This document shows, piece after piece, positions 28,435-64,000 of a stretch of DNA of 64,000 nucleotides. The notes beneath the pieces are model-generated. The model did not search any database, was not told the DNA's origin, and was given only the letters and a program-made list of their open reading frames with translations. This DNA is from Mytilus galloprovincialis. Lineage: Eukaryota > Mollusca > Bivalvia > Mytilida > Mytilidae. A program made the translations under genes and the position numbers. Positions within the stretch are counted from its first letter, which is position 1. Every line of letters starts with the position of its first letter. Location of the stretch: positions 30,204,218 through 30,268,217 of the forward strand of contig NC_134846.1 of NCBI RefSeq assembly GCF_965363235.1, in the 5' to 3' direction.

Positions 28435-31400
28435 TCAAAGTGTTTTCGACTTTTCTACATCTAACGATTTATCTTCGTTGGAGTCGATTACACAAACACT
28501 GTCAATTGTTTTCTCCGATTTGACAAACTTGTTTGTGCAATCCTGTAAATTACAAGTTTTGTATACCGATGGATTAGCTTCCTGTAGTGCTGGTTCATTT
28601 ACTGTTGTAATTTTTGGGATAGCAGATTTTTGTTCGCTTGGCGTTGTATTTGTTTGTCGGTTTGTATAGGTTGGAACATATCAGGATATATATTACTGGT
28701 AGCTTCTTTTTCCAACGGTGAAGAATTTTCAATACATTGATGCACCGTAACTATTACTTCACACGCATTCGAGTTTTCTTGGCAACTGTCCTGAGGTATT
28801 GTGTAAGGTTTACAATATTCTGCATTGTCTTGTGTCGCAAAATCTGAGTTAAAAGAAATATTTGACAAGCTTTCTGTGTGAACTATTTGACCATCTATTT
28901 TTGAAGTGTCGTTTTCCATATCAAAGTATACGTCAAGGTACCCTGTCGATTTTTCATCTTCGATTTCTGTTATAATCGATTGTCTCCCCTGCGAAATGAA
29001 ATCAACAGATTTCCTAAAAGATGCTTGTGATGCAACATTCAGTTCCGTTGTATCAAATATTAACGGGTTTTCGTCGACCTCACTATAGATGCCAATACAT
29101 GGGGTCGGTTGAAAAGATTCCAAAACAACTTCTTTATTGATTTTTAGTTTAAGTGATCGTTGCTTTCTCTTTTTATGTAATAGATGAACCACAACAGTTA
29201 GAGCAGTTAACCCACTTATACACAGTGTATACATTATCCATTCTTTGATTGAACTTCCTGAAATATGATTAGAAATAATTAAAAAATACAACTACAATTT
29301 AAGAGAAATCAATAGCAACATTATTATACACAACAAATTCGAATTCTCTATGTAGTTAATATACGAAGGAAATTATCGCCAGCTTGTTGATTCACTATTT
29401 CTTTTTATGAATACGATACTTCTGAAGTCAACTTGATAGAATCAAAAGATCTAACAACTAACTGACATCTTGATATATATGTATTTATACATGTTCCAGA
29501 CCATATGAGTATTTGGACCGTACACGTGTATTTTTCAAATACGCGTACGGTATGTTTGGTTTTAAGAAGTTGGTCAAGTTTAGTAGATACAAATTTATAT
29601 TACAGAACAACATATTAACTGAAATATTATATTAATTCAAAATGTTAAATTGTAAATCTAACTATGAGAAAAAGTCATGTTAATTTAATCTGATAATCTC
29701 CGGTATTTAGCATGTCAGTAAAACATGAAAATGAATTAAACTCGCTGACATTGAAGGTATTAAAAGGAAAAATAATAATAAAATTTTACTCAAAAATGCA
29801 AATGGAAAGGAATATGCATGAGGAAAACATGTAAATGTATAAAAGGTGTTTTGTCTAAAGACACCATACAACAGTCAATTGATATGGTCAGTGTGTGTCG
29901 ATTTGCTTTTTTCTCATGAATAATGTATGTAGTTGCCAATCTAGTTCAATTTAGAACTATCATTGAGTGCAATATTATACAGATATATCAAAAAGGTGTC
30001 CACAGTTTATGTCATTAGCGGCAAAATGAACGTAAAGATTGTTTTAGTCTGATATATAAACTCATGTATATTCAAACTTACTATCTTTCAAAGTATTGGT
30101 CTGTTTTCCAGTGACTGTTTCATTTAAAAATTTAACTGACACTGTGCTCTCTGCAAATAAATAATTCACATCAATACTACTAATAATAAATAGCAAAAAC
30201 TTTAAACTGCAGGAAAAAGACAGCAAATCTTCGACCAATCGTAATCATTTTAGGACTCATCTCCTGAGGGAATAGCAACCACAAATTTAGTACAATGACG
30301 TTATTTATCAATACTACAAAGGTAAATAACACCAGTCGTCGATTGTATTCGAATATGTAACATATATTTATCATGTTTATGTTTTCGGCAGATCCATAAA
30401 TAATAACCTATACATAACACAAAAAAGCTGTGTTGACTTTAGAGCCAATAATACTCATTTAAAACCCGAATTAATTATCGTCATTCATGATAGACATTCC
30501 CTCGCAAGCAGGTGTATATAAAATATTATATAGCATCAATGTCTGCTGCCATGATGTACAATAAACAAACTATTACCGAGTAAAGCAAAGGAAAATGATG
30601 TAAACCTATAAAGGTCATAGCTGGACGGTTAAGAGAGATTAAAATAATAATTTAAAAAATGATTAACAATTTTAAAAAGAAAGCAAAATGCCTGATTCTA
30701 CTTACATCATTAAAAAACATGAAATACACCAATCGATAGATTGAAAATCAATATTAAAGGAAAAAATCTATATTTTGAAACACACTTTACTAATTAAAAC
30801 CTGCATGCTCAACGATCAAGTTTCTCATGTTTCAAACGCACGAACTATTGTCTTAGTAAATCAGATAATAGATGGTTTACCTGTGCTCTTTGAAATACAT
30901 CCCACCTCATTATCGCACCTATTTTGTGTTAAAAAGAATTAATGTTATTTCTTTACATCCTATATAGCAAACATGTGAAATGATACATTATATATAATAT
31001 CAAGTTTCCAATAAATATAAGAATTAAAAAGAATGTGAATTACATCCGAAAAGGGGGATTTTCATGTCTATGTCTCAACTTATTGCTCGAGCCCAAAGTA
31101 TTTGAAAATCCAACGCTTAGTAAAACGACAAAGAGCTACAAACCAAAACGGTCGATAAAAAAGCCTAATCCAGGAAAACTGCGTTACTATTTTAAGCAAA
31201 AGTATCATCAAGTTAATTGAAAGTGTTCTTAATAAGTAAAATAACAAAAGACACCGAAGTCCAAGAAAACTTCAAAATGGAATTAAAGTATCTTATCGAA
31301 TGGCAATATCAAAAACTCAAAAACCTCAAACGAATTGAAATTAACTCTCATATTCCTGACTTGAACATGTTGAAATTTATAAATTACATGGAATATCAAT

Positions 31401-34400
31401 TCACTTTATTTCAGTACCAACCATACTATCTTTTTTTTTATATTTTTTGTTTTGTTTGGGTTGCAACTTAGAAACGTACCTTTCATAAGGATTACAGTCA
31501 CATGTTTCACTACATAAAATACCATACATATTATATTTACATGGAAGACATCGACCTCCATCTTCTCTTGTTGTTGTTCCAATTTTGCATTCTAAAAGAG
31601 GGAAGTATTGATAAGTTCCTAATAAATGATATCCGCTCTTTGGACGGGTTTTGGTCTCTTTGACACATTCCCAAATTTCCATTCTCCATTTTATTTTCAA
31701 GCATTAAAATAATGTTAACAAAATTTCAATAACAATATGTTCATTTAAACATGTTAAAGGCGGCGTTGTCAATAGAATTTTATGAATTGCTATCCATTTT
31801 TCAAATCATGTACAGAAAGACAAAGTCATTCGATTTTTTTCCCTAATTTTGTTCTTTGAAATGTTTTCCCCCCACTGTTTATCTATATGCTTTTCTTAAC
31901 CAGAACACACAAAAGCACCTAATGTTGTGCTCATTTTATCGTTTTATATATGTTAAGTTTTTTTATTTTTTTTATCTCATTGTTTTTGGTTATTTCTACG
32001 ATATAATTTCTATAATCCCTGGTACCGTCTTCTCTTTTTCCTTTTAATTGACATCTTAAATCATTCTTGAAAAACTTTTTATCAATTATGACGAACAAAA
32101 GTCAATATTTTCAATTAAAAAAAATCGAAAAAGAAAACAAACGACAGTGATGAATAGTCTACAAATCAAAACAAGACACTCAGTGTCACGACTCAAACGC
32201 ACACAAATGAAGCCATGCTTCATTGCACGATTCGTACAGTTACTCTTGGGTATCGTATATCGATGAGTTATAACCTGTAATTATATATCTTGTACTTGAT
32301 AAAACGTTTTCCATATTTATAAATTATGGACATGCATATTTTATATAAAACCGTATTCATGATCAAAGGTAAAGTTTTAACTTAAAGCTTGTTTTCATCA
32401 TTTATTTTTTCTTTATTGTTGAAACTGTTAATTTGAGGCTAACGGTCTATTTATTTTATATGTCAGATCATTTTCACCAATGACTAATTAAATACATTTG
32501 TTTTTATCATTTTAAAAATCGCTACAACTATTGACTAGAAGTTCATTTTGGAGATCAACAATCCAAAAGAAAGGACAAGGAAGTATTTTGTACCAATTAA
32601 GTTTCTCCAGACTATTAGTTTCATTGTTGATGAGTATTTTAATTGTGTTAGATAGTTCTTGTAAAGTTAACACCATTGCACATAACCCTTTTCACGTTTA
32701 ATCTGTTCTATTTGATTTTTCAATGATAAATTTTCGCGAATCAATATTTATATATTTTATCTTATTCATATAATTATTATAAAGAATCAGTTATTACACT
32801 TATTTTCTTCTGTGCACGTTTGTTTACATTCTATCAACAAGGTTTTCCCTTGAACTTGTGCTTTGCGATGACCGAAGTTTTAACGAGAGGTATCGTAGGT
32901 AAGGTCACGGCAAACACCGGAAAATAAGTGCACAGGAAGACAAAAATTCAATAGCAGTACATTTAAATACACTATTAAAATATAAAGGATTTTCTTGTAC
33001 AAGAAAGTTCACATACAATGTACACACGTTCTAAAGTTAGAGTGTAAGTTAGGATTTCAATTAATACAGACATATTCAACTTGTACATCATTTTTAAGTT
33101 TCATTTGACTTTTGTTAACCTAAAATAACAAAACAATGAAGATCAATTTCATGGTACAAATGGCAATGCAAAGGATTGGAATAAGACGTTTGGTTTCTTT
33201 ATTGAAACTACACCATCCGTCACAATCTTGATTTTTTAGTTACATGGCATTGTATCCAAGTGATATTTGCATAACTTTTTGGATTCATTCTGGATTGTCT
33301 TATAAAAATTTACTCGAAATACTTATATTTTAGGAATAAGTTAACAGAATAACAGAACATGTTAAAAGAAAATTGGCTAACGTAATAGTACATTTAACGC
33401 TTCCTTTTGCATTTATTGTCCATTTTTTTTATTACATGTATCTATGCCACCTATCCTTTAAAAAAAATATTCAATCATATAGACCTCAAAGTAGTTTACA
33501 ATGAAACAAAGATTTGGCTTTTCATATTATAATATGCACCGCATTCATTTTCCTATTATTTTATGTCACTTAAATCATAGAACATACTCTATACACTAAA
33601 TAGCACCCATACCAATGTTGATATAGTATTCCGTAATCTGTTTAGGAATTTTATACTGTAAAAAGACATCCGTCAAATATGGTATTTAGACAATATGACT
33701 ATTGAGGAGTACTGATACATTCCGGAAAAGTATACATTGATAACTAGAGGCTCTAAAGAGCCTGTGTCGCTCACCTTGGTGTATGTGAATATTAAACAAA
33801 GAACACATGACAAAATTGTGTTTTGGTGATGGTGATGTGTTTGTAGATCTTACTTTACTAAACATTCTTGCTGCTTACAAATAACTCTATCTATAATGAA
33901 CTTGGCCCAGTAGTTTCAGTGGAAAATGTTAGTGAAAATTTACAAATTTTATGAAAATTGTTAAAAATTTACTATAAAGGGCAATCATTCCTTAGGGATC
34001 AATTGACCATTTTGGTCATGTTGACTTATTTTAAGGTCTTACTTTGCTGTACATTATTGCTGTTTACAGTTTATCTCTAATTAATATAATATTCAAAATA
34101 ATAACAAAAAACGGCAAAAATTCCTTAAAATTACCAATTCAGGGGCAGCAACCTAACAACCAGTTATCCAATTCATCTGAAAATTCTAGGACAGACAGAT
34201 TTTCACCTGATTAACAATTTCACATCCTGTCAAATTTGCTCGAAATGCTTTGGTTTTTGAGTTATAAGCCATAAACTGCATTTTACCCCTATGTTTTACT
34301 TTTAGCCATGGCGGCCATCTTGGTTGGTTGGCCAAGTCACTGGACACATTTTTTAAACTAAATACCCCAATGATGATTAAGGCCAAGTTTAGTTTAATTT

Positions 34401-44759: not shown

Positions 44760-47230
44760 TCAGTATGTGTCATTCATTTAAGTGATATGAACTTCTAACA
44801 AACAAAAAACAAAAGAAATATGACAAATAAGTGAAAGTATTCAAAAATGTCATCTCTATTGACGTAGTACCTAAACAATAAATAGCTTGACATTAAAACT
44901 TTCTTCATATTTTTATTGTCAATGTTTGTTGTCAGAAAGATTCTACAATTAGGTATATATCCATACACAACTCGAGTTGATGGATACAGAGAACTAGTAT
45001 TGACCAGTATTTTTATCATTGTTATCGGTTTATCATCAATAATGAAAATACCCTTTAGCATTGTTAAAAGCGAAAATGCAAAATATATCAAAGTCTAATG
45101 AGACTTTTTTGTAGGTAATCAAATACAGAATAACACTAGTAAACAAATAAGAGTAGTTTTCAAAAGATGAACAATAAGACAAAGTTGCAGTTCATATTTA
45201 ACTTGATGTATTGCATGGTACTGCAATTTTTTCATTAAATATTGATATTTCATACCAACATCCAATAATGAAAATAACACACGTAAAGTAAAGAAGTTCA
45301 GTTTTAAATTGATCAAATGGATCATTTAAATAAATTTGTATACTCTTTTTATCAATTTATCTATACAATGAATGAAAAACTGTATAAATTTGTTTTTATC
45401 TTCAATCACACATTGTCTCGCTACCGTAATATAAAGTGGATGGAACTATTCCAACATATCTTCAAATTTGCACACGCACTGTCGATTTCTTTTCAAAACC
45501 CCAAAACAAAATGAAAACATAACAAAGTCTTTAAGCGGGAAAGCTCATGTATGTCAGTTGTAGTTGACACAGTATATACTCATGGTAAAGGCTTACATAT
45601 ACTGTATGGAGAATAAATTAATCTTAAGACGCCATTTTAAAATAGATGCTTACATATTTTAAATATTTTGTTTTTATATTTTGCTTAATCAATTTTGTAA
45701 AAGATAAGCAGGTCCAGCCCATAGATCATATTACTGTACCAGTTAGCTGTTAACAAACTTAACAATAAGTGGTATATCGTTTGAAGTAGTATTCAAAATA
45801 TGTAACAAACCATAAAATTCCACTTGAAATCTATAAATACATACAATGGGTTTTTATTACCAACCTTTGCATTTAGCTGAGAGGATTTTCTAGTTACATA
45901 AATATATCTTATTTTAAGCAAAATGACTGAACCTTGATACTTGATTTCAAACAGAAAAAGGAACATAAGATAAACGGAAACTCAAATGCTTAATAAAATT
46001 GAGGACAAATTCTACGAATAATCTAATTTGCAGTATTGTTTTTGAAAGAGTACTTTGAAAGATTAAAATCGGAAGTGACACATTGGCATCTTCCTTTGCA
46101 GGTGCTCTGTTCCAAGTCAGGAATATGACAGTTGGTATCCATTCGTTTTATGTGTTTGAGCTTTGGATTTTACCATTTAATACGAAACTTTCAATTTTGA
46201 ATTTTCCTCGGAATTCAAGATATTTGTGATTTTACTTTTTAAATCCTTATCAATCTTATTTAATCATTGAATTGTCCTTTTTATTTAGACTGATGCAGAT
46301 TATATGTTTGAATATGTCAAAAAGAGCAACAAAAATTAACTTCTTGAAATTGCATGTCTACAGTTACATGTATATGGTGGGTGCTAGCGGTACATCTTTC
46401 CAGTGAACTGTATCCATTTTAAATGCGCTTCTACGATTGTGAGATTGAGGAACATAAAGTTATTTCAATAAAATAAGAAAACCCATCGAACAAGCATTTG
46501 TTTATGCATACTTTATGTAATGATAGTTATCACATTGACCCTTTAATATAAAGAGAGAAAGTACGTACTTTTCAGTAATAATGACGTGTCCTCCTATTGG
46601 AAATATTCAAACCTATTTTTGAATGATATTCAGATCTTAAAAATAATAATTGAAATATACTTTATAGTTGATTTTCATACTATAGCTTGTCACAACTAAA
46701 AAAACATTCTAATTCTTTTAATACAAGCCAAGCACCACGCGCCGTTCGGGTGAAGACATACCCATAATCGTATGCATATCAGTCTGATCAAGAGAGGAAA
46801 AGTTCAAACAATAGGTTCTTTATGTTGTAGTGCTACGACAAAAAGCCGAAAGTACTTTTTGTAATGACTCTGTTAATATATCTTTAACATGTTTAATATA
46901 TATCTTATAATGAAAGTGATGGCTTTTCACGCCACAAGTTTATAACTTTATTGTTTATCAAAATGTTTCATGATTTTTTTTCAGTAAGATTGATATCAAT
47001 ATGATCCTATTCTATTTCAAGTAAATAATTGGTAGAAAACGAATATGTTTCCTTTTTACAAATATTCAAGACAAGCAGTCGTGTAACAATATTTTCGTCA
47101 ATTCTTGGATTGTTTTCGGTTTTTTTTTTCAATATGCTCATGGAAATCATAATGAAGTTGTATGGTTATATGGGAGTTTATTGGTTTTTTTTTGTGTTTT
47201 TTTTTATATTGAGATTTCCCCGCACAAACT
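44760..47230. repeat. Tandem segmental duplication, right copy
   Basis: Colinear with the left copy at 39985-43605 (anchors given there), but without its three insertions. A minus-strand phrase LTTNIDNK..KKV...NRDDIF is open in both copies (about 44840-44960 here, 40090-40190 in the left copy). This may be a relic of coding sequence or simple conservation by recency. Confidence 0.8.
46100..46236 (+). repeat. Dispersed repeat (TATGACAGTTGGTATCCATT type), right duplicate
   Basis: Contains CCAAGTCAGGAATATGACAG and ATGTGTTTGAGCTTTGGATT. It was already present before the duplication. Confidence 0.6.
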
Positions 47231-47754
47231 GCCTCTTGTTTATCTTTTTATAGTGAAAATACACAAACCTGTTGCACTTGAGTCAATGTCAACACAGTAT
47301 TAATTGAATTATCATATCTTGCTATTTTGTTGTATGTATTGCCTGTAGTATATATGTTTATTTTTATTACACATGTTACATATCTATTGTTTGTGTATCG
47401 CATATGCTATTGTTTATAATGATTATGTGTGTACCCTCCTGGGTCCCTAATTTGTTGAATAAAAATATTCTATTTTATTCTATATATAATCTGGAATCAC
47501 TTTGGACTTTCATTGTTCAACAACAGGATTGTGTCACGTTATCTGTATATATCCTATATAAAATGAATTGTCGTATTTAAATAGAAAACTACTTACTAGA
47601 TTTCTATTTGTTTTCCTTTGTGATGAGTGAATCTTCCTGTTTAAAGAGAAAATACTTAGTTAATGTGTTCTAAGTGTCATTTGAATTAATATGTTTTTTT
47701 AATATCAAAAATATATTATTAGCAAATCAAAGTTTGAAGGGAAACGTATATGTG
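47231..47754. other. Upstream region of receptor gene A
   Basis: AT-rich, with no TATA or initiator that stands out. The 20-odd bases before the ATG share AAGGGAA and TATA/ACGTRTAT phrases with the sequence before the gene B ATG, so homology extends into the 5' untranslated region. Confidence 0.4.
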
Positions 47755-50700
47755 ATGGCAACATTCCATTCTAATCATGATAGAAATAATCTGTGTTCAC
47801 CAAAAACTGTTGTGGATGAAAACCACACGTATGAGCCTTTAAAACCAATACACTTGCCAATATCGAATGGCAGGTATGATACCTTGCTAAACGTTCAAAA
47901 TTCTGGAAAAAATCATCAAAACAAGCTCAGTGGAAACAGAGAACAAAGGGATTGTAATTTGGAGCACAATCAAACGTATGAAAGATTTACTAATCAACGT
48001 GGTAATAACCAAAATATTTACGATTCGACACATACAGACGCAGCATATGTATCTAAACATTTTGTGAATTCCGCGCCGAAATCCAGATTATGCTATAATC
48101 AAAATACTTATTGTTACGCTACCACGGCAGAGATTAAACAAGATGATCATTATAGCGAATTACAAAAACAGAATTCTCGCAGCTCTAACATATATGAGAT
48201 TGCAGATGGAAAACAACTAAACTTAACCCAAAACACAGGACCAAATAAACTGTTACCTATCAGTGATAAAAAGAAAACAAATATCGTAGGTCAGCGAGGA
48301 AAGAGATGTGTGTGTTTCGTAATTGGTTTCCTTTTGGGAGGTGCCATAGCTAGTGTGGCTGTGTTTATGTTGCTGAATACTAATTCGAACATGTCTAAAG
48401 ATGTTGAAAAGTACAACATTCAGGCACAAGGTATTTATTCTATTTGTTAATTACCGCTCAATATTTCACTTGAGTAAAAATAATTTCTCTCAAAAATATG
48501 TAAATTATATTTAAGGTAGATGGGTGTCTAATTAAAATTCATTAATTTTTTTAATAATTTGTCAGAATATAATTTATATTATGCTATTTTGAAAAAATAT
48601 CATAACATGTGTGGATCACCACAGGCTTTTCTTCACGCTACAGGTTGTTCAACATTGTCAGATGTTGTATAAAAATAAACATGAAAACCGAATTTTGTGT
48701 GATAAAAAGAGTTACATGAATATGTGGCAAAGTTAAAACACATCATTTTCTATGTTAACATGAAAAGTCTTACACATCTGTTCAGGAAAATTTTGCCAAG
48801 GTAGAAAGTCTTAAGTAGTTCGACAAATACGAAGTTTTGTCATCAGCTTATTTATATGCTCATATGTTTATAGGATATCAAAAGTCAAAAACAGTCAAAT
48901 ATCATATAACTACAAATCAATGGCACTTAGCGCCAAATGTACACGATTCAAATGATGGAACTCATTGATGATGACTGGAAAAGCCAACATCTACGATATT
49001 GATCTTTAATATTCAATAGGTCTATATATATATACTAGTATCCTGTTAATTTTTTATGTGTCATAGATTAGAAAGAAAACAACTATTTTAAATCAAAATA
49101 TATTTACTACAATTTCTTGATTAAAATGTTCATTGTAATATTAATCAATTATAAATATGTAAATATGAGCCTTTATATCATGAGATACGTGTATAATTGT
49201 AGTGTATAAGAACATATCGGTATGTGAGTGGGACACGTGGTCTTCCTGGTCAGAATGCAGTTTTTCATGTGGAAATGGTACACAATATAGAGAAAGACAA
49301 CAAACTGGAACATGTAATGATAAAGCTAATAACGATACAAGAACATGCACTAATAACCCTTGCAAAGGTACATGTTGATAACATTTTTTTAATTATTCAT
49401 AATTTAAATTTAAAAGATATACATATAGCTATGAAAAACATGAGTAAGAAGGGCAAGACTATTGGTATACAGAATCGTTTGGTGATTTATTACTTTATCA
49501 TGTTTATACACTATCATGAAAAGCCGAACAGAAATATAGCCTCGAACAGCAATTTGTTCGATCAGTCGTCACAACAAACTTTTACTCGTTAAACAAACAT
49601 AATACAAATAGTACCGGTAGTAATATGACTTCTCTACATCCGTTTTATATCTCCTTTAATGTTACTGATATATATGTTTTTAAGTATGCTAAATAGTTTT
49701 TTGACATAATATCACGAAACAGTTGAATGACTTTTTGGTATATTTCGGCTGTCATTTCAAATAATATTTTATATATTTTCAAGCAAATACACAATGCTTT
49801 CGTTTCGTATCCGTAGCTGGCACCAACAGCTCGCTATAGCTTGCTCATTTTGAGGTAAAGAGGTTTGATCCTTGGAAAGTAAAGACAAAATCCGTAAATT
49901 TGTCTACTCTAATATTTTTCTCTCGTATACTTTTCATGTCACCTACTTTTCTAAAAATGATCCGGAATAAACTCAGGTACTAGTTGTAAAGGAAGACATG
50001 TCTGACTGCTGACTTTGTCGTTGATAGCCAACATGACAATAAACAATCGCTGCTGAATTTATATTATTTCGAGGATAATTACTCAAGATTTTGTAGTAAA
50101 ACCTAAAGCATAGCATAGTGGTTGTTTTTTTCAGCGTCGATGCATTGTTATCTTTTATTGTTTGAATCTGTGGCATTAAAGTTAATAAGAATCAACAGTG
50201 GTATTTATTTTTTTTCAAATTACCTTTCTCTCTTTCAGTAAAATCATAAATATTTTTCTGATGCGAAACAACATCTGAAGAAGTGATAATGGAAAAAAAC
50301 ATTTCATATATTATTATAGAATTAAGGCCTTTTACAAAATGTTTTAATAATGAGATATGAATGTTTAAGAGATAACAACACTAATTTGAAAATGTATATT
50401 TTCTATCCTAGGTAGAAGAGTATTACTGGATATGACTTTCGACCCATCTACTCTAAATGCGAAACGGTATTTATCAAGAGACAATACAATTCTGAGCAAC
50501 CAGTGGTCAAGTCAAACGCCCAAAGGGTCTCCTGGTAGAGGCGCACTACAAACATATAGTGGAGTCATTGCAGACCAGTGTTTCGGAAATGGAAAGAAAA
50601 TATATTACCGTGTTTTCTATAGCTATACTTTGAAAACTGTTTTGTCGGCCACTAATCTTATTTTAGAAGTAGGTCTTTCACAGAGGGACGAGGTTGATCG

Positions 50701-51061
50701 ATCTGATTTTGTTGGAAATGTACAGCAAAAGGGTTGGTCATTTGCACTTGCCAGATGTGGTTCTTCAAACAACATTTGTTTGAGAGCAAAACATCTTAGA
50801 ACACTACATACTAATGATTTCTTCAGTGGGAACAGTGTAGGTTTGCAGAAAAATGGTACCTTTGAGTTACTTATAGACAGGCAGAAAAATAAGTTTACTT
50901 TGAAAATTTCAAATACTCAAAAAACTGTTATTTCGTTTGAAAATGTTGCCTCAAACAAAGTACTTTGTCCAGTATTCGGAGTTCATAACATACCAAAAGT
51001 TAATGTTCTTCTCCAGATATTGGAGAGTAGAGATGTTACACAAGAACAGTTCGAATTTTAA
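47755..51061 (+). CDS. Receptor gene A: tyrosine-motif tail, TM, TSP1, SPRY/B30.2-like (type II membrane protein)
   Basis: Three exons, 47755-48430, 49203-49367 and 50412-51061, all joined in phase 1, give about 496 residues. Residues 1-184 are hydrophilic with no signal peptide and carry Y26EPL, Y41DTL, Y75ERF, Y89DST, Y133SEL and Y147EIA. A basic RGKR precedes the single membrane segment (about 185-207, [20 protein letters not shown]). Then one TSP1 repeat (233-280: [20 protein letters not shown], six Cys). The C-terminus (about 290-496) is SPRY/B30.2-like: [16 protein letters not shown] (PRY-like), [36 protein letters not shown]1 is a disulfide-rich extracellular module, so I infer N-in/C-out topology. 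The ATG at 47755 matches the start of the paralog. AATAAA at 51099 could be the poly(A) signal. Ligand and partners unknown. Confidence 0.85.
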
Positions 51062-51519
51062 ATAAAAAAAGATAATATTTTTTTCATATAGAGAAAGAAA
51101 TAAACATGAACAATAGATAAATAGATCAATAGTTATATAGATATGTAATTTTATGTATATACATAGATACATAAATTGATTGATTCATAGAAAGATGAAC
51201 ATAGTTTAAACATAAAGGCCATATATAGACATGTGTATTTTTGAATTCTTGTCATTCATGTTTGTCCATGGGCTTTGTGTATATGCCATTTTGTTTTGCT
51301 TTGTTGACATATTTGGTTTTTTTGATAGTGATAATGATTACTATAACACAAAGTTTGATTGTCGTATTCTTATTTCTGAGATTTTTACCTATTATGTACG
51401 TATACATTTGTTTTGTTGATAATATTGCTAATATAATGGAATCGTATACCACTATCATGCAAGCAAGGGGTTTCACTAGCAATCAAACTTGATTTAATTT
51501 ACTATTTTCTACATATGGA

Positions 51520-51662
51520 AATGCCTGTATTAAGTAAGGAATATGACAGTTGTTTTCTTTTCGTTTGATGTGTTGGAGCTTTGAATTTAGCCAGTTGATA
51601 AGGGACTTTAAGTTTTACATTTTTCCTTGAGTTTGGTATTGTTTGTAATTTTACGTTTTGTT
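51520..51662 (+). repeat. Dispersed repeat (TATGACAGTTG...TGTGTTGGAGCTTTGAATTT type)
   Basis: Third + strand copy of the family also seen at 41.74 and 46.10 kb. Confidence 0.6.
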
Positions 51663-51782
51663 CGCGAAGATAGGAAGTTCCTTATTGATTACTCATTCCG
51701 AAAATTTACATATACTTTAATTGATGTTCTTTATTTGTTCAAGTAAAAGGAGAAATATCAAACTAATCAAGGTTTCATCAAG

Positions 51783-51835
51783 TATCTTCATCAAGTATCT
51801 TCATCAAGTATCTTCATCAAGTATCTTTTAAACCA
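51783..51835 (+). repeat. 13-bp tandem repeat
   Basis: Four perfect head-to-tail copies of CATCAAGTATCTT. Confidence 0.9.
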
Positions 51836-51892
51836 GCATCTCAAAGATTCAAAATTAAAAATTAAAATTGAATGCAACAACTCAAAAAACAT

Positions 51893-52105
51893 AGATATAG
51901 GAAGATGTGGTATGAGTGCCAATGAGACAATTCTCCATCCAAATAACAATTTATAAAAGTAAACCATTATAAGTCAAGGTACGGTCTTCCACATGGAGCC
52001 CTGGCTCACACCGAACAGCAAGCGATAAAGGGCCCCAAAATTACTAGTGTACAACTATTCAAAACGGAAAAACCAACGGTCTAATCTATATAAAATCTCC
52101 TATAA
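51893..52105 (+). repeat. SINE-like dispersed repeat, subtype a (best copy)
   Basis: It runs from AGGAAGATGTGGTATGAGTG through CAAGGTACGGTCTTCCACAT, CACCGAACAGCAAGCGATAA and AACCAACGGTCTAATCTATA. This is the longest copy of subtype a here. No clear pol III boxes, so SINE status is a guess from size and copy number. Confidence 0.65.
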
Positions 52106-52885
52106 AGAACAAAATCGCGTCTAAATCACTGCTAGGTGAAAAAATCGCATCGTCAGATATAAGATTTACAAATGTAAAACAATTCAAACTTAAATACTGA
52201 CACCTTGATTAATATATAAACCAATATCCGTTTAAAGAATAGGATATACAGCAATAAATGACAAGCACTGAATAACACGATTCTGTCTTGAGACATGCAC
52301 ATACAGAACAAATGAGTCGTTTTAAAAATTCATTATACATTATTTTTAAAGGTACCAAAGTCCTCCGATTTTGCTGCTTGCTGTTTTGGCTGTGTCGTCG
52401 TGTGTCTTTGCTGTGCATTGTTTAAGCAAGTACGATGTTTAAACTTCATTTATGTATGACCAATTTTAAAACCACATTATCGAGTCTTGTCAATATTCAT
52501 TATAATTGTGAAAAAGCATCTTATCATTAAGTAGTATTTATAAAAGTTAATTCAAACAAAATCTGGAATAACTTCAACTGTGCTTATTCTGCTGCACTTA
52601 ATGTGCATTCGACAGTTGAAGTCTCTTCAGTGCTTAATGTCTCTTCGGGGTCCAAATGTAGAGCTTCTAAACCATAAGGGACACAGAAATGTAGCCAAGG
52701 AATCAGAACGATGCATTAGCAAGGTTGATATCTTATAGTAGAATTGTTTAAAATATTTTATAGCATAAAATTTACGTTACAATATATCAATATTTTCATG
52801 ACATTACCGAAGTGCTGGCAATATTCTTGGCTAATAGCTCTGATACAGGGATTCTGGGATACTGATTACTTGCGAAGTTACATTT
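52106..52885. other. Intergenic, no supported gene
   Basis: Nothing beyond AT-rich sequence and a repeated CTCTTCRGTGCTTAATGT phrase near 52620. Confidence 0.4.
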
Positions 52886-53352
52886 ATCATCTATATCATG
52901 GTATCTCTGTATCATGGTATCTCTGTATCATGGAATATCTCGGTATAATGGTATCTCTGTATCTTGGTATCTCTGTATCATGGTATCTCGGTATAATGGT
53001 ATCTCTGTATCATGGTATATCTGTATCATGGTATCTCTGTATCATAGTATCTCTGCATTATGGTATCATTGAATATCTGTATCATGGTATCTCTTCATCT
53101 TGGAATCTCTGTATCATGGTTTCTATGTATAATGGTATCTCTGTATCATGGTATATCTGTATCATGGTATATCTGTATCATGGTATCTCTGCATTATGGT
53201 ATCTCTGTATCATGGTATCCCTGCATCATGGTATCTCTGTATCATGGTATCTCGGTATCATGGTATCTCGGTATCATGGTATATCTGTATCATGGTATCT
53301 CGGTATCATGGTATCTCGGTATCATGGTATATCTGTATCATGGTATCTACAG
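52886..53352 (+). repeat. 16-bp minisatellite
   Basis: About 29 copies of ATCTCTGTATCATGGT with scattered substitutions (CGGTATCATGGT, CTGCATTATGGT). As 16 is not a multiple of 3 and the unit lacks stops, all three + frames stay open across it. They read the same 16-residue peptide (SVSWYLCIMVSLYHGI). These frames are not genes. Confidence 0.92.
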
Positions 53353-53629
53353 TATCATTCTTTAGAATTCAAAACAACTTACAAATTGTTACTGTTAATG
53401 ACGTCTTTACACTACATCCATAGGATATTGGATGTGTACCGATTGATGTTTTATTCATATATACATGATGTATAATTAGTTGTGATCCCTCTTATTATGT
53501 ATTTGACTTTCCCAAGTCAGGAGTCTATTATTAAATGGTTGTTGTTTGCTGTGTAACACATTTGTTTTTCATTCATTATTTTGTACATACATTATGCCGT
53601 ATTTTGTTTACATTTGCCATTTTAAGCCT

Positions 53630-53750
53630 TTTTTATCTAACTATACGACATGGGCTGTGCTCATTGTTGAAGGCCGCGAGGTAACCAATAGTTGTTGTTT
53701 GGTCATTTGAGAGTTGTCGTATTTGAAATCATACCATAATTATCTTCTTT
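53630..53750 (+). repeat. Dispersed repeat fragment
   Basis: CTCATTGTTGAAGGCCGCGA and TTGTTTGGTCATTTGAGAGT are a phrase I recognise from many mussel repeats. Confidence 0.5.
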
Positions 53751-54132
53751 TTTATATCATAAACATTCGTTTAGCCCCAAAATGAATTCTTTCAACATAG
53801 ATTTAAATTAATGGTTTATTTAGGCGCCATGATTTTTAACGTTTGCTCTGATTACCAAAGTAATGAAGCTTGACAAAGTTTCTAATATAGCCGTAAACGG
53901 GGTTTTGTCATTTGAGAACACGGAAAATAATGTTCTGAAACGTATCCAAAAGGGCATCTAAACATGAAGGAGCTTTTTGTTTTACATAGTTTTTTCAAAG
54001 ATATCGACCTCGGACAATAGTGAAGAATACTTAAATAGACTTTTTTAATGCGTGACTTGAGTTCGGAAAAATAGTTTTAATTTTTATACTGTCTGCCATA
54101 TGGGTTGGAAACACAACTCATGTTATATTTGA

Positions 54133-54759
54133 AACATTTACTAATTTAAAGTACACTGCGTGTTTAACTACATGTATGCCTACTTTCAAAGTGGGATTGG
54201 CTGTCAACTTCATGTTGATCGATTTGACTCAAAGTCCCATATTAATATAACCCATTAGCTGGAGATGAAGTTTGCATGAATGATGCGTGCGCAGTTGTTA
54301 AAAGGAATTTAATGTCAACATCGAAATTGAAACAAATGTAAATCCTTCTTATACAGGTAAAAACGAAGATTACCATATAAGGTTAACCTATAATATGAAA
54401 TAAAACAGACCTTGAAATTTTCAATTGAACGAGTTCGCTATCTTTATATATCTATATTTATAGTTATCATGAAAATACCGCTTTTTAAACCGTCGGATGT
54501 CTTCTGGAGTCACCATTATGGTTAAATAGATTGCGTCTAGCCTAAAATACTCACGAAACGATGATACGTATTAGCAAGCCCATGCATTGCAGGTTTTTTA
54601 TTTTTATAACGTGGTGATACATTGTACGTTTTAGTATGTTATAAATCAAATATGGGAATTTAAGTCAAATCGATCAACATGAAGTTGACAGCCAATCCCA
54701 CTTTGAAAGTAGGCATACATGTAGTTAAACACGTAGTGTACTTTAAATTAGTAAATGTT
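54133..54759. mobile_element. Inverted-repeat element with about 115-bp near-identical arms
   Basis: AACATTTACTAATTTAAAGT at 54133 and its reverse complement ending at 54759 begin arms that continue through GTTTAACTACATGTATGCCT, CTTTCAAAGTGGGATTGGCT and TCAACTTCATGTTGATCGAT with only a few differences. The central part is about 390 bp with no gene. The target duplication is unclear. High arm identity suggests recent activity or gene conversion between arms. Confidence 0.8.
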
Positions 54760-55925
54760 CTAGATAACGGATAAACATATATATTTTCTTGCACACACTT
54801 ATGACTAGTTTAAAGGGAAGTGGATGATACTTCTTGGTACTTAAACAATAACTGGAAATAGTCAACCCTATTTGGACCAGGTCATGTAAATCGTAAATTA
54901 ATCAGTAAATTGTATTTGAAGGTTGATTTTGATATTGCTAATTATAGCTGCGAGTCATTATGATGTATCCGTTTTTCTTTCAATAGATAAGATTAAAAAT
55001 TTGAGTCAGTGCTTCTCGGTCTGATTAATTAAAGTAAGTATTCAACTCATCCAATATAAAGTTGACTTATTAACTACATAAATAAATATATCGGAGTTGG
55101 ATAACACTATCCGCCCTCTTTGGTCGCAACACTTTCTCTCCTTGTATCACTTATCTGAGTTTAATTTAAATTAATTTTGTCGCAGAAATAATGGACTAAT
55201 GTAGCGTCAGTCAAAATGAGAAAAACAAAGTGACAAATACATACACAGATCCTTAAAAATAAGAAGACAAATAGGACAAAATATGTGCTCAGAAAAAATG
55301 AGCAATTCCAATTATGAATACGGTAACATGTTCGGGAATGTGAATCCACGAAATACGGAGACAGTACACATCACTTCCAATAACGATCGATCAGACATAG
55401 TCTGAGAGATGAAACTCAATATATTTGTAGGGATACCGATTTTATACCCCGAGCTTATTTTAAAATCTAGAAAAATATGTCTCTTTTATTATGGATGGTG
55501 GAGATGCAGGAATAATGATTTACAACAAAACTTATTACGAAAAACAAATATGACGGACATGAATATTTCGGCAACTTCTATCTAAATATTCATAAGGAAA
55601 AGTGATAACGGGTCAGTGAAGGTATATGTCATAGAAATATACAGTCAACGCATTTTGACTGTTCAAATAGAATGAGTACAGTATAAAAGCCAATAACAAA
55701 CTAGTAAAAAATCTAAGATAATGTGTGACATTCTTGTCCCGCTTGTGTCTTTGTCAAATTGTCTAATTTTAAAAACTTAGTACATTATGTGTTTTGTTGG
55801 AAACTTGACACTTATTTTTCATTTAAAGACTGTTTTCAAGAAGAAAGACATATTTAGATATTATTGATTTTAAGAAAGGTAGTTCATATATTAATTCAGA
55901 ATCGGTGCTTTTCCATTACATTAAG
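54760..55925. other. Intergenic, no supported gene
   Basis: No exon or repeat boundary recognised. Confidence 0.4.
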
Positions 55926-55929
55926 AATT

Positions 55930-56256
55930 GAAAATGCTAGATACTAAAAAAAATTGTATTGTACAGCTGATAAAATTGAGGATGAGCGTCATTTTTCAAT
56001 CCAATGCTCACTTCATAATAATTTGAGGGAGGAACTCTTTCACCATATTTCTAGCAGATGTAAGAACTTTAAAAAGTTAGATATAAATATGATAAATTTC
56101 GATGTTAGCACAAGGAAACTTTACTATTATGGGGGAAATGATGATTACATTGTTAGTTCTTTTGAATTATGTAGTACATGTCTTGATACTGACTGTTATT
56201 TGATATCAATGTGTTTTTTTTTTTATCTATTTTGTCTTGGCTCCGATTGTGACTGA
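55930..56256 (+). mobile_element. LINE 3' relic (reverse transcriptase C-terminal cysteine motif)
   Basis: The translation CTADKIEDERHFSIQCSLHN is the typical end of a non-LTR retrotransposon reverse transcriptase protein (C-x..-EDE-x-HF-x(3)-C). About 100 residues remain open. No upstream reverse transcriptase domain lies in the adjacent DNA, so this is a 5'-truncated copy, the usual outcome of target-primed insertion. Confidence 0.6.
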
Positions 56257-56344
56257 GGCTTATAGTGATATACAGATAATCATATCATATTAGTATTGTA
56301 ATGTCTTAATGTTGACCCAATCATTAGACTGCCGCTTCGAAAAA

Positions 56345-56700
56345 AAGTGGAGGTATACTGTTTTACCTCTGTCTGTCCGTCAGTCCAACCGTCCAACCGT
56401 CAGTTTGTCCGTCCGTCCCATAAATATTTTCGTTGCATGTTTTTCATGAACTACATTACAAGGATTTGTGAAAGGTTTATAGGAGTCGTCTATATCGTGT
56501 GATGCGTTTTCAAATTCATTACTCATTACATGACAGCCAAAGTTGAAAATTGTCGTCACATTTTTCTCAGGAACGACAATACAATGATTTCTGAAATTTG
56601 GTTTCAAGGTTTATAAAAGTCAGATATACTTTGTGATGCTTTTTCAGATTCACAACTCAAAAACTTCCTGTCTACCGAAATGTTTTTGCGGAGGTATCAT
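56345..56700. repeat. Dispersed repeat with GTCCGTC microsatellite
   Basis: GTGGAGGTATACTGTTTTAC opens it, then CTGTCCGTCAGTCCAACCGT and tandem CGTCCGTCC, then two degraded copies of a unit with 'ACAATG/ACATTACAAGGATTTGTGAAAGGTTTATA'. It is a bivalve repeat type; non-coding. Confidence 0.5.
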
Positions 56701-56962
56701 CAGTAGCTCGTACCATCAATGATTGTTCTTGATTTATATGCTCTTTAAAGATTCTTGAATTTGGAAAATGAAATATTCTTTTCTGTTATATTATACATAC
56801 AGATTTCGAATTGAGTATAGAGAAAGTATTCGAACTACCTCAATAGCCTTATGTTATGTATCCGGAGTTATTTCTTAAAATATGTTATTACATATCTAAA
56901 CGTAATAATACAGACAGAGAAATTTTATTTTACCCTGATACCCTGGTACGTAACTTGATAAG

Positions 56963-57060
56963 TGCCGGACTTATGGGTTGTCGGAGTATTGGGCTGTCGG
57001 AGCAATGCGTTATCGGACTATTGTTTCTCGGACTAATGGGCCGTCGGAATAATGGCATGT
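56963..57060 (+). repeat. Degenerate short tandem repeat
   Basis: Five to six imperfect units of about 17 bp around TGTCGGAGTATTGGGC / CGTCGGAATAATGGC. Confidence 0.6.
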
Positions 57061-57584
57061 AACCTTCAATATCTACAGATTTAGTATACAAAACAATATT
57101 AAATCAATGTCAGAAACAGAAATATGTTTAAATCAACACGAAACTATTATTGCAAGGTAAACCTAGACCTTGCTTACGTTTAAGTCTCATCTAAAGCAAA
57201 AAATATTTTTGTCATAGACGCAATATTGTATATATAATACAGATATGTAAATTTATTTTAACGTCCCATGACTCACATCAATTAAAAACATGCACTTGAT
57301 AAATTTACCACGAAATTACGCGCAAGGGATGCGTCATCTTGATAAGAACATGTCAAATTATCTGTAAATAAAACAATAGACCCAAGGAATTTCCCATTTG
57401 ACAAGTTTGAAATATCATGTTCAAACTTTAAATAAAAACTACTTTATTTAAAGAAAAACTGTATGTTCCTTTGTTTTGGTGTCGGTGCCAACTTCAGTAA
57501 ATGTTGCTTGATGCATGAAATTTAAAGTTATTTATTAGTACAAAGTTAACTCTGCGATTAGAAGGGAATATACACGTGTATATT

Positions 57585-60500
57585 ATGGCCAAATCATATT
57601 CTAACCGTGATGGAGATACTTCAGTCAAAACACTTTTAAGTGAAAATCAAACGTATGAACCGTTGAGGGAGCAGCACTCGGAAGCAACAAATTGCAGGTA
57701 TGATACCTTGCAAAATTTTCAAAATGCAGAACACAATTATAAAAACTCGAACAGTAGAAACATGGAACAAGAGGATTGTAAAATGGAACAGAATCAAACT
57801 TATCAAAGTTTGACCCTTGAATGTCGACTCACTCCGAACATTTATGATTCCACGAACTGTCAGGGCGACGTAGAACATGTGTTTGAAAATTGTGTTAATT
57901 CAGAGCCAACATCAAGAATCTACACTTACATTTCTTGTGATACTAATCAAATTGCAGATGTTCAGCAAGGTAATTATTATAGTGATTTGCAAACCCAGGC
58001 TTCTTATAATTCTAAATTATATGAGATTGTGGATGGGAAGCAACTGAATCTCACTAAAAATGCCCCTAGAAGTTGTAAAAATATTACAATTTTCGACAAT
58101 CAGCGAGGAAAATGGTTGGCATGTTTTTTCGTGTTCTTCTTGTGGTAGCTGCCATCGGCTGTGCCGCTGTTTTTCTGTTGACGAAGACCAAAACTGAAGA
58201 TCCCGACAGGCAAAATATTACGGATCAAGGTATTTAGTCTTTTTATAATACATTTGTTAACAACTAAAATATTGGTTGCATACTCGTTTTCTCAATTACT
58301 AGTAGTTAATGCTGAATTGAATTAAAATTTTATCATTTTCAAAATATAGTATCCAAGTTTGAACTTGGTGTGTAATCGTTTGCCTCAAAAATTGTAATTC
58401 CTCTTTGTATTGAGTAAAATCTTAAAAGCGTATTTTATATTATTCGAACATACAAAATTTATTAAAAAATACCACACAAATGTTGAATATGTCACTAGAC
58501 AGTATAATCTCTATGACTAATTTGTTTTTGGGTTTTACTTTTCTACTTCATAAGATAAAAGTCTACAAGAATGTATGCCTCTCTACTCTGACACATTATT
58601 CTGACTTCGACATGGTTTTCGATTTTACTCTTAAACGACGATGAGAAACATCAAATGCTATTTTACGTTGTTTTTTAAATAAAGACAACAGTAGTATACC
58701 GCTGTTTAAAATTCATAACTCAATAGAGAAAAAAAACAAATCCGGATTACAAACTAAAACTGAGGGAAACGTATGAAATATAAGAGAACTACGACACAAC
58801 AAAGACACAACACCGAAACGTAGCACACACAGAAACGAACTATAATGTAACAATGGCCATTTTCCTGACTTGGAACAGGGCATTTTATGAAAAAATGGTG
58901 GGTCGAACCTGGTTTTGTAGCATGCCAAACCTCCCGCTTTAATGGCAGTGTTAATTATAACCTTAAAAGGACAACATTACACGACAGGGTTACACTAAAT
59001 AAACAGATAAATGGGAGAAAATATAGGACAGAGAAACAAACGAATAATTGCCATCCAAAGGTAACAGGTTAAAAAATATTTTATACACCAGACGCGCGCT
59101 ACGTCCACACAAAACTATGCACGGATGTCAAAAGTTTGAAAGCCATAACAACTACCAAGTTGAAGATCGTCGAGGACCAAAAGTTCCAAAAAGTTGTGAG
59201 GCCAGGGTTATTCGCCTGGGACAAAATCATCATTATTATCAAGCATAATACATAGTTTTGCAAACAGTAAATTTCATAAAATGACTATAAATTAGATATA
59301 CATGATTAAACTAAAGTGGTGACTAGCTGTAGAATAAAAAACGAATATACTACAAAATCACAGCCCTGTTAACCTGGTCGATTATCGAACCACGACGTTC
59401 CGGTCTCACTGTGATCACGCAACCGTAGGTGATACATCCAGGGATTATAAAGATTATTCAAAATAGATGTATTACCCAGAATAACACAATTTCTACGATA
59501 CATTAATGTTTGGATATTTCTGTTATTCTCTTTTATTCAAAGCATACATGTTTGATTACATTGTCATTTATTACTGTCAGTATTCTACTAGGAGATATTC
59601 TGTATGCTTCATTGTCATCTTCATGGGACATGGTACATAACATAGCTGCGTTATTACATAGGATCTGTAGAAAAGTAAAAAAAATCTAACACAAAGATGT
59701 ATATGATATACTCTGAAATTAGACATAAATGGGGCAGGAAGATGAATTTAGGTTTCATTGCCATTCATAAACTTGTCAATTATATGATCGGAAATGACTT
59801 CGTGTCAAACTTAGTTATGAAAATTTAATTGTTCTATGTGTGTGTTTCGAGACTTATCAGATAAAGTTAGTGACATGTTAAAGACCAAATTTCAAAAAGA
59901 CATAGTAGTGATATTTAAGAGACATTTCAATATCTTAATCTATCAAACAAGTTTTAAAAGTATGTACAACAGACAGATGCGCGTTAGGTCAAAAGACCCA
60001 ACTGTGACGCTAGAATCAAGCTAATAACATAAGCAGGCCAAATAAAGAACGAAATCAAAGAAAAAATTATGACAACATAAGTTTAGAATTTTGGACGGTT
60101 GACGACCTTATGGTACGGTGGCATTCGGCTGGTATCTACTCTATGGTCGGGTTGTTGTCTCTTTGTCATATTCCTCATTTCCATTCTCAGTTTTACTAAT
60201 ATGTAATGGTCGGCCCTTACAATGTTTTATTGATAGTTATTATGCTAGCGCTGGATTATTGAAACTTTGAATAAGCGATCTAGAATGTCGCCTATCAATG
60301 AAACAGTACATTTAAAAAGTTACGATATGCTTAAGCAACATTATTCAAAATGCTGGGGTTTCTTGTGATTAAGGATACATTGAATATTTATGAAAATTAA
60401 CATTGATATCTCTGGAAATATTCTTTTTTTAAATATATATTATAAAACTCATGCACATGTAGTCGGATTTTGAAATAGTTGAAATTCGATACATGTATAT

Positions 60501-63500
60501 GGTTAACATATTGATGCCATCTGGAATAAGATAAGCACATGTTAAGCGTAACAATAATACTTCTCTGAATTACATACTCTACACAAGGCTCGCGTTTCAC
60601 AATTGGTTGTATGACTTACATATATCACTACACTAAAGTTTTATACCCTATCCAACTATAAATGTATCATTTGACATTCAATGTTACTCGTATGAAACGT
60701 ACGCCAAATACACTGACAGAACAATACTTTTGAATTATGTATTAGGAGGAAACGAGCATGCACATCTAAAAACAAAACAAAACTAAATGTTATTAAAGTT
60801 TGTCTGAGACATATTTTTTAATATAATTTCTATTCATTTAAAGTCAAATCCAACATTTGATATACCAATAATCCATAGAACTAGTTCATGTAGTAGTATG
60901 CCTTTTATATAGATTTATCAAATGATGGAATACACTAATTATGACTTTTCTACATCTAACTGTAGCATTGAATAACACATCAGGATGTGAGTGGGTCACT
61001 TGGTCTTCGTGGTCAGAATGCAGTGTTTTATCTGGAAATTGTACACAATATAGAGAAAGATACCAAGATGATACAGCGCAAACATGTAGTGGTAAAACTG
61101 ATAATGAATCGCGAACATGCAACAATAAATTTTGCCAAGGTACATTTTAAGAAGAGGGTACAGTTGTTAAATTAGAAATTCGTTTTTAATGCAAATTGTA
61201 TTGGTCGTCTTCGTATATTTTGAAGATGTTTATTTTTCTTAAGGGGAAACGCTATTTGAATTCCAACAATGTTGGGTATTTGATTTCTTCCAATCTAAAC
61301 CAAACAGTCACGCTTAACTTCGTTTTGAACACAGGAATAGTTGTCTCATATTCAATCTAACCACATGTGCAGCTCCTGATTGGACATGAACATACAAGCT
61401 TACGCATCTACTACATCTAGACAAGTGTACTTTAAAGGCGGCAAGTTATTTCGTATCTTTACCGTTTTGTTCCTCTGCCTTTACGATATATCTTTTAAAG
61501 AAATAAAACATTAAGGGAGTACTTCGCTTATCAGTTTCAGAGTAATTAACTTTTCAAAACATTAGTTTATATTGATAGGGAAATAATAAAGAGATTCAAA
61601 GAGCAAAAAAAATATATAGGTCACCGTGCTTGTTTTCGAGATATAAGCAATTGAAATTTTGGCGGGAAAATATTCTCTCTTGGCTTTTCATAGCTTTATC
61701 ATTGACAGGTTGAAGTTCTAAAAAACTGTTAAAAAGTAATTAAAATTTTATAAGACTTTCACAGATGGCTTATCATTATACATGTAAAAGATTTACAAAT
61801 AGAAAAATGGGGGTCACCGGGCAAATTTTTTCAAGGCATTCAAATGGATAAAACCAGAGGATTCCGAAAATCTGACAAAAAATCCAAAACAAGACAAGCC
61901 AGCTTCCTTAATAGATTTTTGTTGTAAATATTACATTAATCATGTTAATAAAATGAAACCAGCCATGGACATTTCTTTTAAGACCGATGTTTTGTTTTGA
62001 TAAAGCAGTACTTTGAAACTTGCAAACTTTGAATACACTTTTTTTTTGCAATATTATACATAATTATTTTTTCAACTCTAAAATAATGAAGTAAATTTAG
62101 CAACCGTTTTTTTTTTATATTTATGAACAGTTGTTCAAATAAATCTTGCATGAGATACGAAATGGTATAGATATGAATCTTCCATGGGGTAATGGCCTAC
62201 ATATAAATCTTCCATGGGGTATGAAACGGTATATACATATTGATATTCCATGGGATACGAAATGGTCAATGTTCGAAATGCACACGGAACTAAAATGTCT
62301 TTCCAGGGTACGAAACATTAAGGATACGAAATGACTCCAATACTCAAAACTGTCTTTAACATGTTTAAATATACGTATATAAAAATGATGGATCACACTA
62401 TCATAAACTTTCCTGCTCCTTATCTCAGTGCTCAATAGGCCACTAGTATGTGAATGGGACCAATGGTCATCCTGGACAGAGTGCAGTGTTTCGTGTGGAA
62501 ATGGTACACAATATAGATCTAGACGACAAAATAGAAGATCAAAAACATGTATTGATAAAGTTAAAAGAGACACAAGAACATGCACTACTACACATTGCCA
62601 AGGTAATTGTAAAATTCAACATGATTAAGATATCTTTGTACGTTGCTATCAAAGAAGATAATAAAGATGATCTCATCCTAATGTCTCTGAGCATTTCGTA
62701 CTTATAAAATTCATTTCTTTTTCTATAAATATTTATCATTTACTCGTCAATGGAAAAGCGGTAAGTAGATCACTTAACAACATCCGTTGAATGTTTCCTA
62801 TTTTGTAAATGCAGATATAGATGTATGTGTATAGTAAGTAAATGTTTAGGTTATGTTTAGGTTAAAATATACATGTAAAATCACAAAAAGATAATTCTAT
62901 TTATGCAGTTTTAAGAGACATATATATATGCAATACCTTCCTCATGTCACTTTGGCACCTTGTTGATTTGTAAAGTTGTTATTTGCTTCTTCTCCAATGA
63001 GTTCCCACATTTTAAAGTCGATCTCGATTATTACAATGTATTGGTCAGCTTTGAACAAAATGTTGAAAAACAGTAAAGTAACAAAAATTCTGAATTCCAA
63101 AGATAATAAAAATCGGAAATACCTTTATCAAATGACAATATCAAATGCTCAAACACATCATAGGAATGGAAAACAACTGTTATATTCCTGACTTAGTACA
63201 TAAAAATGATTCTGAATAATTTTATATTATAATTTCTCGTTCTTGTATAAATTTATTGAAGTTATAGGGAAATAAAACGTATCAAACATAATGATTTTGA
63301 TGACCTTTCATTAATTATTATACTATAAAACACTATACATAAAGGTGTATTTATATATATTTGAATAAGTTTTAATGTTTAATTTCTATCCTAGATGGAG
63401 GACGACCGATGGACATACGATTCGATCCTTCTACTCTAAATGCGAACTGGTATTTATCAAGTGACAACAGAATACTGAGCAACCAGTGGTCCACGCAAAC

Positions 63501-64000
63501 ACAAAAAAGTTCTCCTGGTAGAGAGGCACTACAAAGGTATAGTGGAGTTATTGCAGACCAGTGTTTTGGAAAAGGAAAGAAAATATATTACCGTGTTTCT
63601 TATGATTATACTTTGAAAACTGTTTTAACGAACACTAATCTTATTTTAGAAGTAGGTCTTGCACAGCGTGACGAAATTGATCTTAGTTATTTTGTTGGAA
63701 ATTTACAGGAAAAGGGTTGGTCATTTGCACTGGCCAAATGTGGATCTAAAAACAACATTTGTTTGAGAGCAAAACATCGCAGCACACTAAACATTGAAGA
63801 TGTATTCAGTGGAAACAGTGAAGAGTTGCAGAAAAATGGTACTTTTGAGGTTCTTTTAGACAGACAGCACAATAAGTTTTCATTGAAAAATTCAAATGCA
63901 CAAAAACCTGCTATTTCATTTGAAAATGTTGCCTCGAACAAAAATCTTTGTCCTGTGTTCGGAGTTCATAATATACTAAAAGTCAATGTGCAACTCAAGA
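57585..64000 (+). CDS. Receptor gene B: paralog of gene A with two TSP1 exons (3' end outside window)
   Basis: Exons: 57585-58229, 60966-61139, 62429-62602 and 63395 to beyond 64000, all joined in phase 1. The tail repeats the gene A plan: Y24EPL-11-Y39DTL, Y73QSL, Y87DST, Y132SDL-10-Y146EIV. The first TSP1 ([13 protein letters not shown]...) has a Cys displaced, LSGNC where SCGNG is usual. The second ([20 protein letters not shown]) is standard. The SPRY-like exon starts [18 protein letters not shown] and stays open to the window end. In exon 1 the frame meets a stop at 58146 inside the membrane segment. The alternative frame continues [14 protein letters not shown] to the conserved donor, so one base is missing relative to gene A, around the T6 run near 58120. 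Exon 1 is 645 bp where phase demands 3n+1. This is either a real disabling change or a homopolymer sequencing error. Role as for gene A. Confidence 0.83.
58675..59045 (-). repeat. Dispersed repeat (CCAAGTCAGGAAAATGGCCA type) in gene B intron 1
   Basis: Reverse copy of the 38.6-kb repeat, longer here: CTACTGTTGTCTTTATTTAA at its minus start, CCAAGTCAGGAAAATGGCCA, and TGCCATTAAAGCGGGAGGTT further on. Confidence 0.7.
59075..59235 (+). repeat. Dispersed repeat with CCAGACGCGCGCTACGTC core
   Basis: Related to the 10.49-kb repeat. It includes AAGTTGAAGATCGTCGAGGA and GGCCAGGGTTATTCGCCTGG. Confidence 0.55.
59370..59445 (-). repeat. Possible tRNA-derived SINE fragment
   Basis: On minus, a B-box-like GTGGTTCGATAATCGACC lies about 35 bases after GCGTGATCACAGTGAGACC. 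The B box is imperfect and no cloverleaf forms. Confidence 0.3.
60095..60205 (-). repeat. Dispersed mussel-type repeat fragment
   Basis: On minus it reads GAGAATGGAAATGAGGAATA, TGACAAAGAGACAACAACCC and GACCATAGAG, the same core as at 4.07 kb. Confidence 0.6.
61515..61907. mobile_element. MITE flanked by TTAA, in gene B intron 2
   Basis: TTAA (61511-61514) then GGGAGTACTTCG; on the right CAAGCCAGCTTCC then TTAA (61908-61911). The ends are imperfect inverted repeats (GGGAGTAC / GGAAGCTG). The body contains GGGGGTCACCGGGCAAATTT. It resembles the 3.19-kb element in size and termini. Confidence 0.6.
62140..62335 (+). repeat. Degenerate tandem repeat with CCATGGG, just before TSP1 exon 2 of gene B
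   Basis: Four to five loose copies of a unit of about 35-60 bp with ATACGAAATGGTATAGATAT and ATCTTCCATGGGGTA. It ends about 95 bases upstream of the exon acceptor. Confidence 0.55.
63115..63200 (-). repeat. Dispersed repeat fragment in gene B intron 3
   Basis: On minus it reads CTAAGTCAGGAATATAACAG and TTGTTTTCCATTCCTATGAT, the family also found at 41.74, 46.10 and 51.52 kb. Confidence 0.5.

Follow-up and report, generated by a model that had tools for sequence, protein, structure and literature searches.

The 64-kb stretch of bivalve DNA analysed here (hereafter, the window; G+C ~31%) carries two neighbouring gene copies, A and B, and raises the question of whether they encode a surface receptor in which an ITAM-like tail, one membrane segment, a TSP1 stalk and a SPRY-like domain follow one another. 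An earlier note on this DNA had proposed such a receptor as an undescribed class. We address the question from the gene models and their conservation, then from the domains and their predicted orientation, and finally from the rival explanations and the known systems that resemble the proposed design.

Gene layout and constraint in the two copies

Copy B lies about 10 kb downstream of copy A on the same strand and repeats its exon order, i.e., tail and membrane segment, TSP1 and 3′ exon, with two TSP1 exons instead of one (Table 1). Copy A is predicted to encode a 496-aa protein from three exons, running from the ATG at 47755 to the TAA at 51059-51061 without internal stop, and an AATAAA poly(A) signal stands 3′ of this stop at 51099. 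All 10 splice sites of the two copies display GT or AG and every intron is of phase 1, so the TSP1 exons are symmetric (1-1) and the GT-AG introns keep the frame in the predicted models of both copies. The description of two adjacent paralogs with compatible, in-frame phase-1 splicing thus stands, and the gene layout can be regarded as well supported at the sequence level. No third copy was found within the window.

Table 1. Coordinates of the features of copies A and B (position 1 is the first letter of the window)
Feature	Coordinates	Strand	Description
Copy A exon 1	47755..48430	+	ATG, tyrosine-rich tail, membrane and juxtamembrane parts; open frame, GT phase-1 donor
Copy A ITAM-like pair	47830..47886	+	YEPL-x11-YDTL, residues 26-44
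Copy A membrane segment	48307..48375	+	Hydropathy 2.51 over 19 residues
Copy A TSP1 exon	49203..49367	+	55 codons, phase 1-1; PF00090 E 8.7e-8; splice sites
Copy A terminal exon	50412..51061	+	SPRY/B30.2-like domain and TAA
Copy B exon 1	57585..58229	+	Tail and membrane segment; one-base frameshift inside
Copy B ITAM-like pair	57654..57710	+	YEPL-x11-YDTL, residues 24-42; spacing same as copy A
Copy B frameshift region	58124..58148	+	Run of six T (58124-58129), then in-frame TAG (58146-58148); seen on aligning the nucleotides of both copies
Copy B first TSP1 exon	60966..61139	+	58 codons, phase 1-1; PF00090 E 8.2e-6
Copy B second TSP1 exon	62429..62602	+	58 codons, phase 1-1; PF00090 E 1.6e-8
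Copy B SPRY-like exon	63395..64000	+	Ends at window edge; 76% identical to copy A

Of the two paralogs, copy A is intact but copy B is not, since it is frameshifted and its last exon runs past the window end. Indeed, exon 1 of copy B is one base short compared to copy A, at or near the six-T run inside the membrane segment; its own frame stops at the TAG given in Table 1, and another frame continues to the splice donor. This frameshift could be genuine damage to the gene, an allelic difference or a mistake of the assembly. Note that the post-frameshift frame offers an ATG at 58112 or 58121, a hydrophobic leader and a phase-1 donor (58112-58229); if the frameshift is real, a start at either ATG would yield a tail-less form.

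The conservation between the copies claimed earlier was borne out by two comparisons. BLASTN similarity tracks the predicted exons, being confined to them plus at most ~25 bases (in copy A, 47733-48221, 48256-48445, 49194-49376 and from 50391), apart from one 42-base match outside the copy A exons (46881-46922 against 62353-62391). In addition, dN remained below dS in all exon comparisons: dN/dS was 0.31 for the tail exon (49% identity), 0.40 for the SPRY-like exon, 0.63–0.74 for the TSP1 pairs and, with few sites, 0.87 over the 30 codons past the copy B frameshift. Through these substitution patterns, we show here that the predicted protein is under selective constraint. The copy B tail is much more diverged, with a dS of 1.08 in the tail versus 0.38 in the SPRY-like 3′ exon, a gap that would be explained if the 3′ exons had undergone gene conversion or if the 5′ exon had a different ancestry.

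Several other features were observed in the window. On the reverse strand, an ORF at 28599-29291 has a membrane segment and then a tail with GIYSEV, TGYLDV and NIYPDM, and the cysteine-rich stretch upstream of it (31401-31703) resembles an EGF-like repeat (CKYNMYGILCSETCDC); by eye, the two together look like a MEGF or scavenger-type receptor, and Pfam gave no match for these ORFs. A frame at 8410-9921 (+), broken by stops at 9103-9105 and 9577-9579, starts with a B-box-like part (PF00643, E 0.00075, below the cut-off) and ends with a beta-propeller-like part, and is likely a decayed TRIM-like gene. Mobile-element and recombinase sequences are represented by a transposase ORF at 15874-17094 (+; DDE_Tnp_4, E 6.3e-41) and a YqaJ-like recombinase ORF at 17505-18152 (-; E 9.3e-16). 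Finally, a 16-base tandem repeat (TATCTCTGTATCATGG, ~30 copies), crossed by long open frames, lies between copies A and B at 52885-53358.

Protein domains and predicted topology

The TSP1 repeats were recognized significantly by an HMM search against PF00090, with all three TSP1 exons passing the gathering cut-off of 21.6 bits (32.7 in copy A; 26.4 and 35.1 in copy B). In the first TSP1 of copy B, the cysteines are displaced (CSVLSGNC versus CSVSCGNG) and the disulfides may consequently be altered.

A single membrane segment, as proposed, agrees with the single hydrophobic peak of the protein (Kyte-Doolittle mean 2.51, the next best region reaching 1.12). Since this sole hydrophobic segment lies away from the N-terminus, no signal peptide is expected at the ATG. 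Moreover, a 5-base gap in the alignment of the two copies upstream of the ATG means that the frame there is unconserved, so the ATG is likely the start and the missing signal peptide is credible. The net charge on the N- and C-terminal sides of the membrane segment is +5/0 in copy A and +1/−1 in copy B (read through the frameshift), and the TSP1 repeat stands C-terminal of this only membrane segment; both points favour an N-inside orientation. A type II protein with a cytoplasmic N-terminus is therefore favoured for copy A and remains the best reading of the topology suggested earlier, as judged from TSP1 position, flanking charge and the start of the frame. N-glycosylation sites were dropped as topology evidence because NxT sequons are present in the tail too. 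A secreted TSP1-SPRY product was considered and rejected, since the stretch from copy A exon 1 to the TSP1 exon was found to contain no leader exon whose phase-1 donor could be used.

The SPRY/B30.2 label given earlier to the C-terminal domain draws weak, concordant support from a profile of solved B30.2 domains and a fold search, but not from Pfam, for which neither the SPRY nor the PRY model matched either copy at E up to 10. Searching the PDB by sequence with the single-copy domain gave TRIM9 as the best match (E 0.42, two collinear pieces), and a two-copy profile gave zero matches. Our B30.2 profile was built from MID1, MID2, BTN3A3, TRIM14 and TRIM21, using the sequence letters of their PDB entries; it scored 14.4 bits in copy A and 22.3 bits in copy B, against a maximum of 11.1 bits in 5000 shuffles of the copy A domain and at most 0 for reversed sequences. 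The alignment was full-length in copy B and limited to the first 60 residues in the best stretch of copy A. Using hhalign, the comparison with this profile reached E 7.8e-5 over 153 columns, the minimum in 200 column shuffles being 0.017. The AlphaFold model of the domain was of low confidence (mean pLDDT 41.9), and a second model, for which copy B was placed first, did less well (pLDDT 31). With the former low-confidence model, Foldseek returned MID1 first, followed by TRIM67 and MID2 (14–18% identity), and VIA gave MID1 a Z of 11.3 (rmsd 3.9 over 147 residues). NCBIfam provided no useful match. Searches of viral, phage and bacterial-genome collections returned no relative of the domain, which is what one would expect if the gene is of animal origin. 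Altogether, it is plausible from profile and model that the domain is a divergent SPRY-like one lying below Pfam detection, its membership being unproven.

The N-terminal 184 residues of copy A form a tyrosine-rich tail. Using the consensus YxxL/I-x6-12-YxxL/I, one ITAM-like pair was found per tail, a YxxL-x11-YxxL present in both copies, in line with the ITAM-like tail of the earlier note, though such a pair arose by chance in 3.7% (A) and 4.4% (B) of composition shuffles; because the copies are related, these two rates do not multiply. Seven of the nine aligned tail tyrosines are kept, which is not significant (p 0.08). Given these shuffle rates and this p value, the evidence that the pair acts as a signalling ITAM is suggestive.

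The proposed receptor and rival explanations

We propose, tentatively and with a little under an even chance of being right, that copy A is a type II, ITAM-tailed surface receptor with a TSP1 stalk and an external PRY/SPRY-like ligand domain. The 184-residue tail would be cytoplasmic and the lone hydrophobic segment would serve as signal anchor, so that the TSP1 stalk would expose, on the cell exterior, a diverged beta-sandwich of PRY/SPRY-like type that may bind a protein or glycan ligand. Clustering would then lead Src-family kinases to phosphorylate YEPL-x11-YDTL and the adjacent YxxPhi sites, and the phosphorylated tail would recruit a tandem-SH2 (Syk-like) kinase, resulting in uptake or activation comparable to those of CLEC-2/Dectin-1 and Draper/MEGF10. 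Copy B would be a tandem paralog, possibly broken or mis-assembled at one base.

The main rival reads the tail differently: copy A would be a type II adhesion or scavenger protein whose YxxPhi (AP-2) and NxxY motifs are endocytosis and adaptor signals, with uptake proceeding without Syk-type signalling. Four tail motifs fit YxxPhi (YEPL, YDTL, YERF/YQSL and YSEL/YSDL in A/B), in excess of shuffles in copy B (p 0.005) and marginally so in copy A (p 0.06), and three NxxY motifs are conserved (NHTY/NQTY, NGRY/NCRY and NQTY/NQTY). Yet the exact x11 ITAM spacing is kept in both copies despite the low tail identity, and we consider this account rather unlikely. A quite improbable alternative concerns the other end of the protein, where a different sandwich of the concanavalin type (L-type lectin or galectin-like) would make copy A an ordinary lectin receptor on a TSP1 stalk. 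Structural comparison is compatible with it, as VIA on the same pLDDT-42 model gave Emp46p, VIP36 and galectin-8 Z values of 10.4–11.2, about tied with MID1. Sequence evidence nevertheless favours B30.2: TRIM9 came out of the PDB search, Pfam returned no lectin family, and the MID/TRIM/BTN profile, the one family profile built here, spans nearly the whole domain including its PRY-like start.

The three-exon protein itself might not be made, if the tail/membrane exon is never joined to the TSP1-SPRY exons in one transcript or if the array is decaying. The copy B frameshift would fit such a scenario, and the dS gap between tail and 3′ exon suggests separate histories. Against this, exon order and compatible phase-1 splice sites are repeated in both copies, copy A is stop-free with a poly(A) signal, conservation is exon-limited, and dN stays below dS throughout the exons (slightly, and on few sites, past the frameshift); we thus judge it unlikely.

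Comparison with known systems and significance

The nearest design to the proposed receptor is that of CLEC-2 and Dectin-1, which are hemITAM-bearing C-type lectin receptors of type II and likewise have an N-terminal YxxL tail, a single transmembrane segment as signal anchor, a stalk and a C-terminal extracellular ligand domain. Consequently, the earlier suggestion that ITAM-type receptors are built here in a new way was overstated; relative to these receptors, the novelty would lie in the stalk and in the module that binds the ligand. The likeness is one of architecture: in copies A and B, the stalk is formed by TSP1 and followed by the SPRY-like domain, Pfam gave no match to a C-type lectin domain, and the tails carry two ITAM-spaced YxxL motifs instead of one hemITAM. 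Draper, MEGF10 and CED-1 are also single-pass proteins with tyrosine motifs in their tails (ITAM and NPxY-type; PMC8092387), as predicted here. They differ in being type I, with an EMI/EGF ectodomain and NPxY, whereas copies A and B would be type II with NxxY and without EGF, Pfam having given TSP1 only.

Regarding the C-terminal domain, the B30.2 domains of TRIM9, TRIM67, MID1 and MID2 are the nearest solved ones by sequence and model (14–18% identity when structurally aligned), and these proteins are ubiquitin ligases of the cytosol that also contain a RING, a B-box and a coiled coil. Butyrophilins are membrane proteins with a B30.2 domain, as copy A is predicted to be, but they are type I, with an Ig ectodomain and a cytoplasmic B30.2; in copies A and B, Pfam gave no Ig match, TSP1 stands between the membrane segment and the SPRY-like domain, and the latter would be on the opposite, outer side of the membrane according to the predicted topology. 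Precedents for an extracellular PRY-SPRY are found in vespryn and stonustoxin, secreted venom proteins in which this domain acts outside the producing cell, without the tail or TSP1 of copies A and B; a stonustoxin chain was also among the PDB matches of the MID1 B30.2.

SPRY domains bind viral and other molecules within cells, and the SPRY-like fold serves cytosolic pathogen sensing in TRIM proteins and pyrin. In a published description, SPRY domains are sensors that adopt a concanavalin fold and are linked to immune effectors (PMC8195603). In the open-access literature, we found no paper on a mollusc receptor joining TSP1 to SPRY or SPRY to an ITAM. The two copies may represent a bivalve family with an external SPRY-like domain on TSP1 repeats and an ITAM tail, in which the number of TSP1 repeats varies and 3′ exons are exchanged, a generalization that we find doubtful although far from negligible.

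Bivalve immunity operates without antibodies. If the proposed receptor is real, invertebrates would have arrived independently at receptors of the ITAM type, with other modules as building blocks, and the two copies would provide a testable receptor-ligand system for bivalve immunity.
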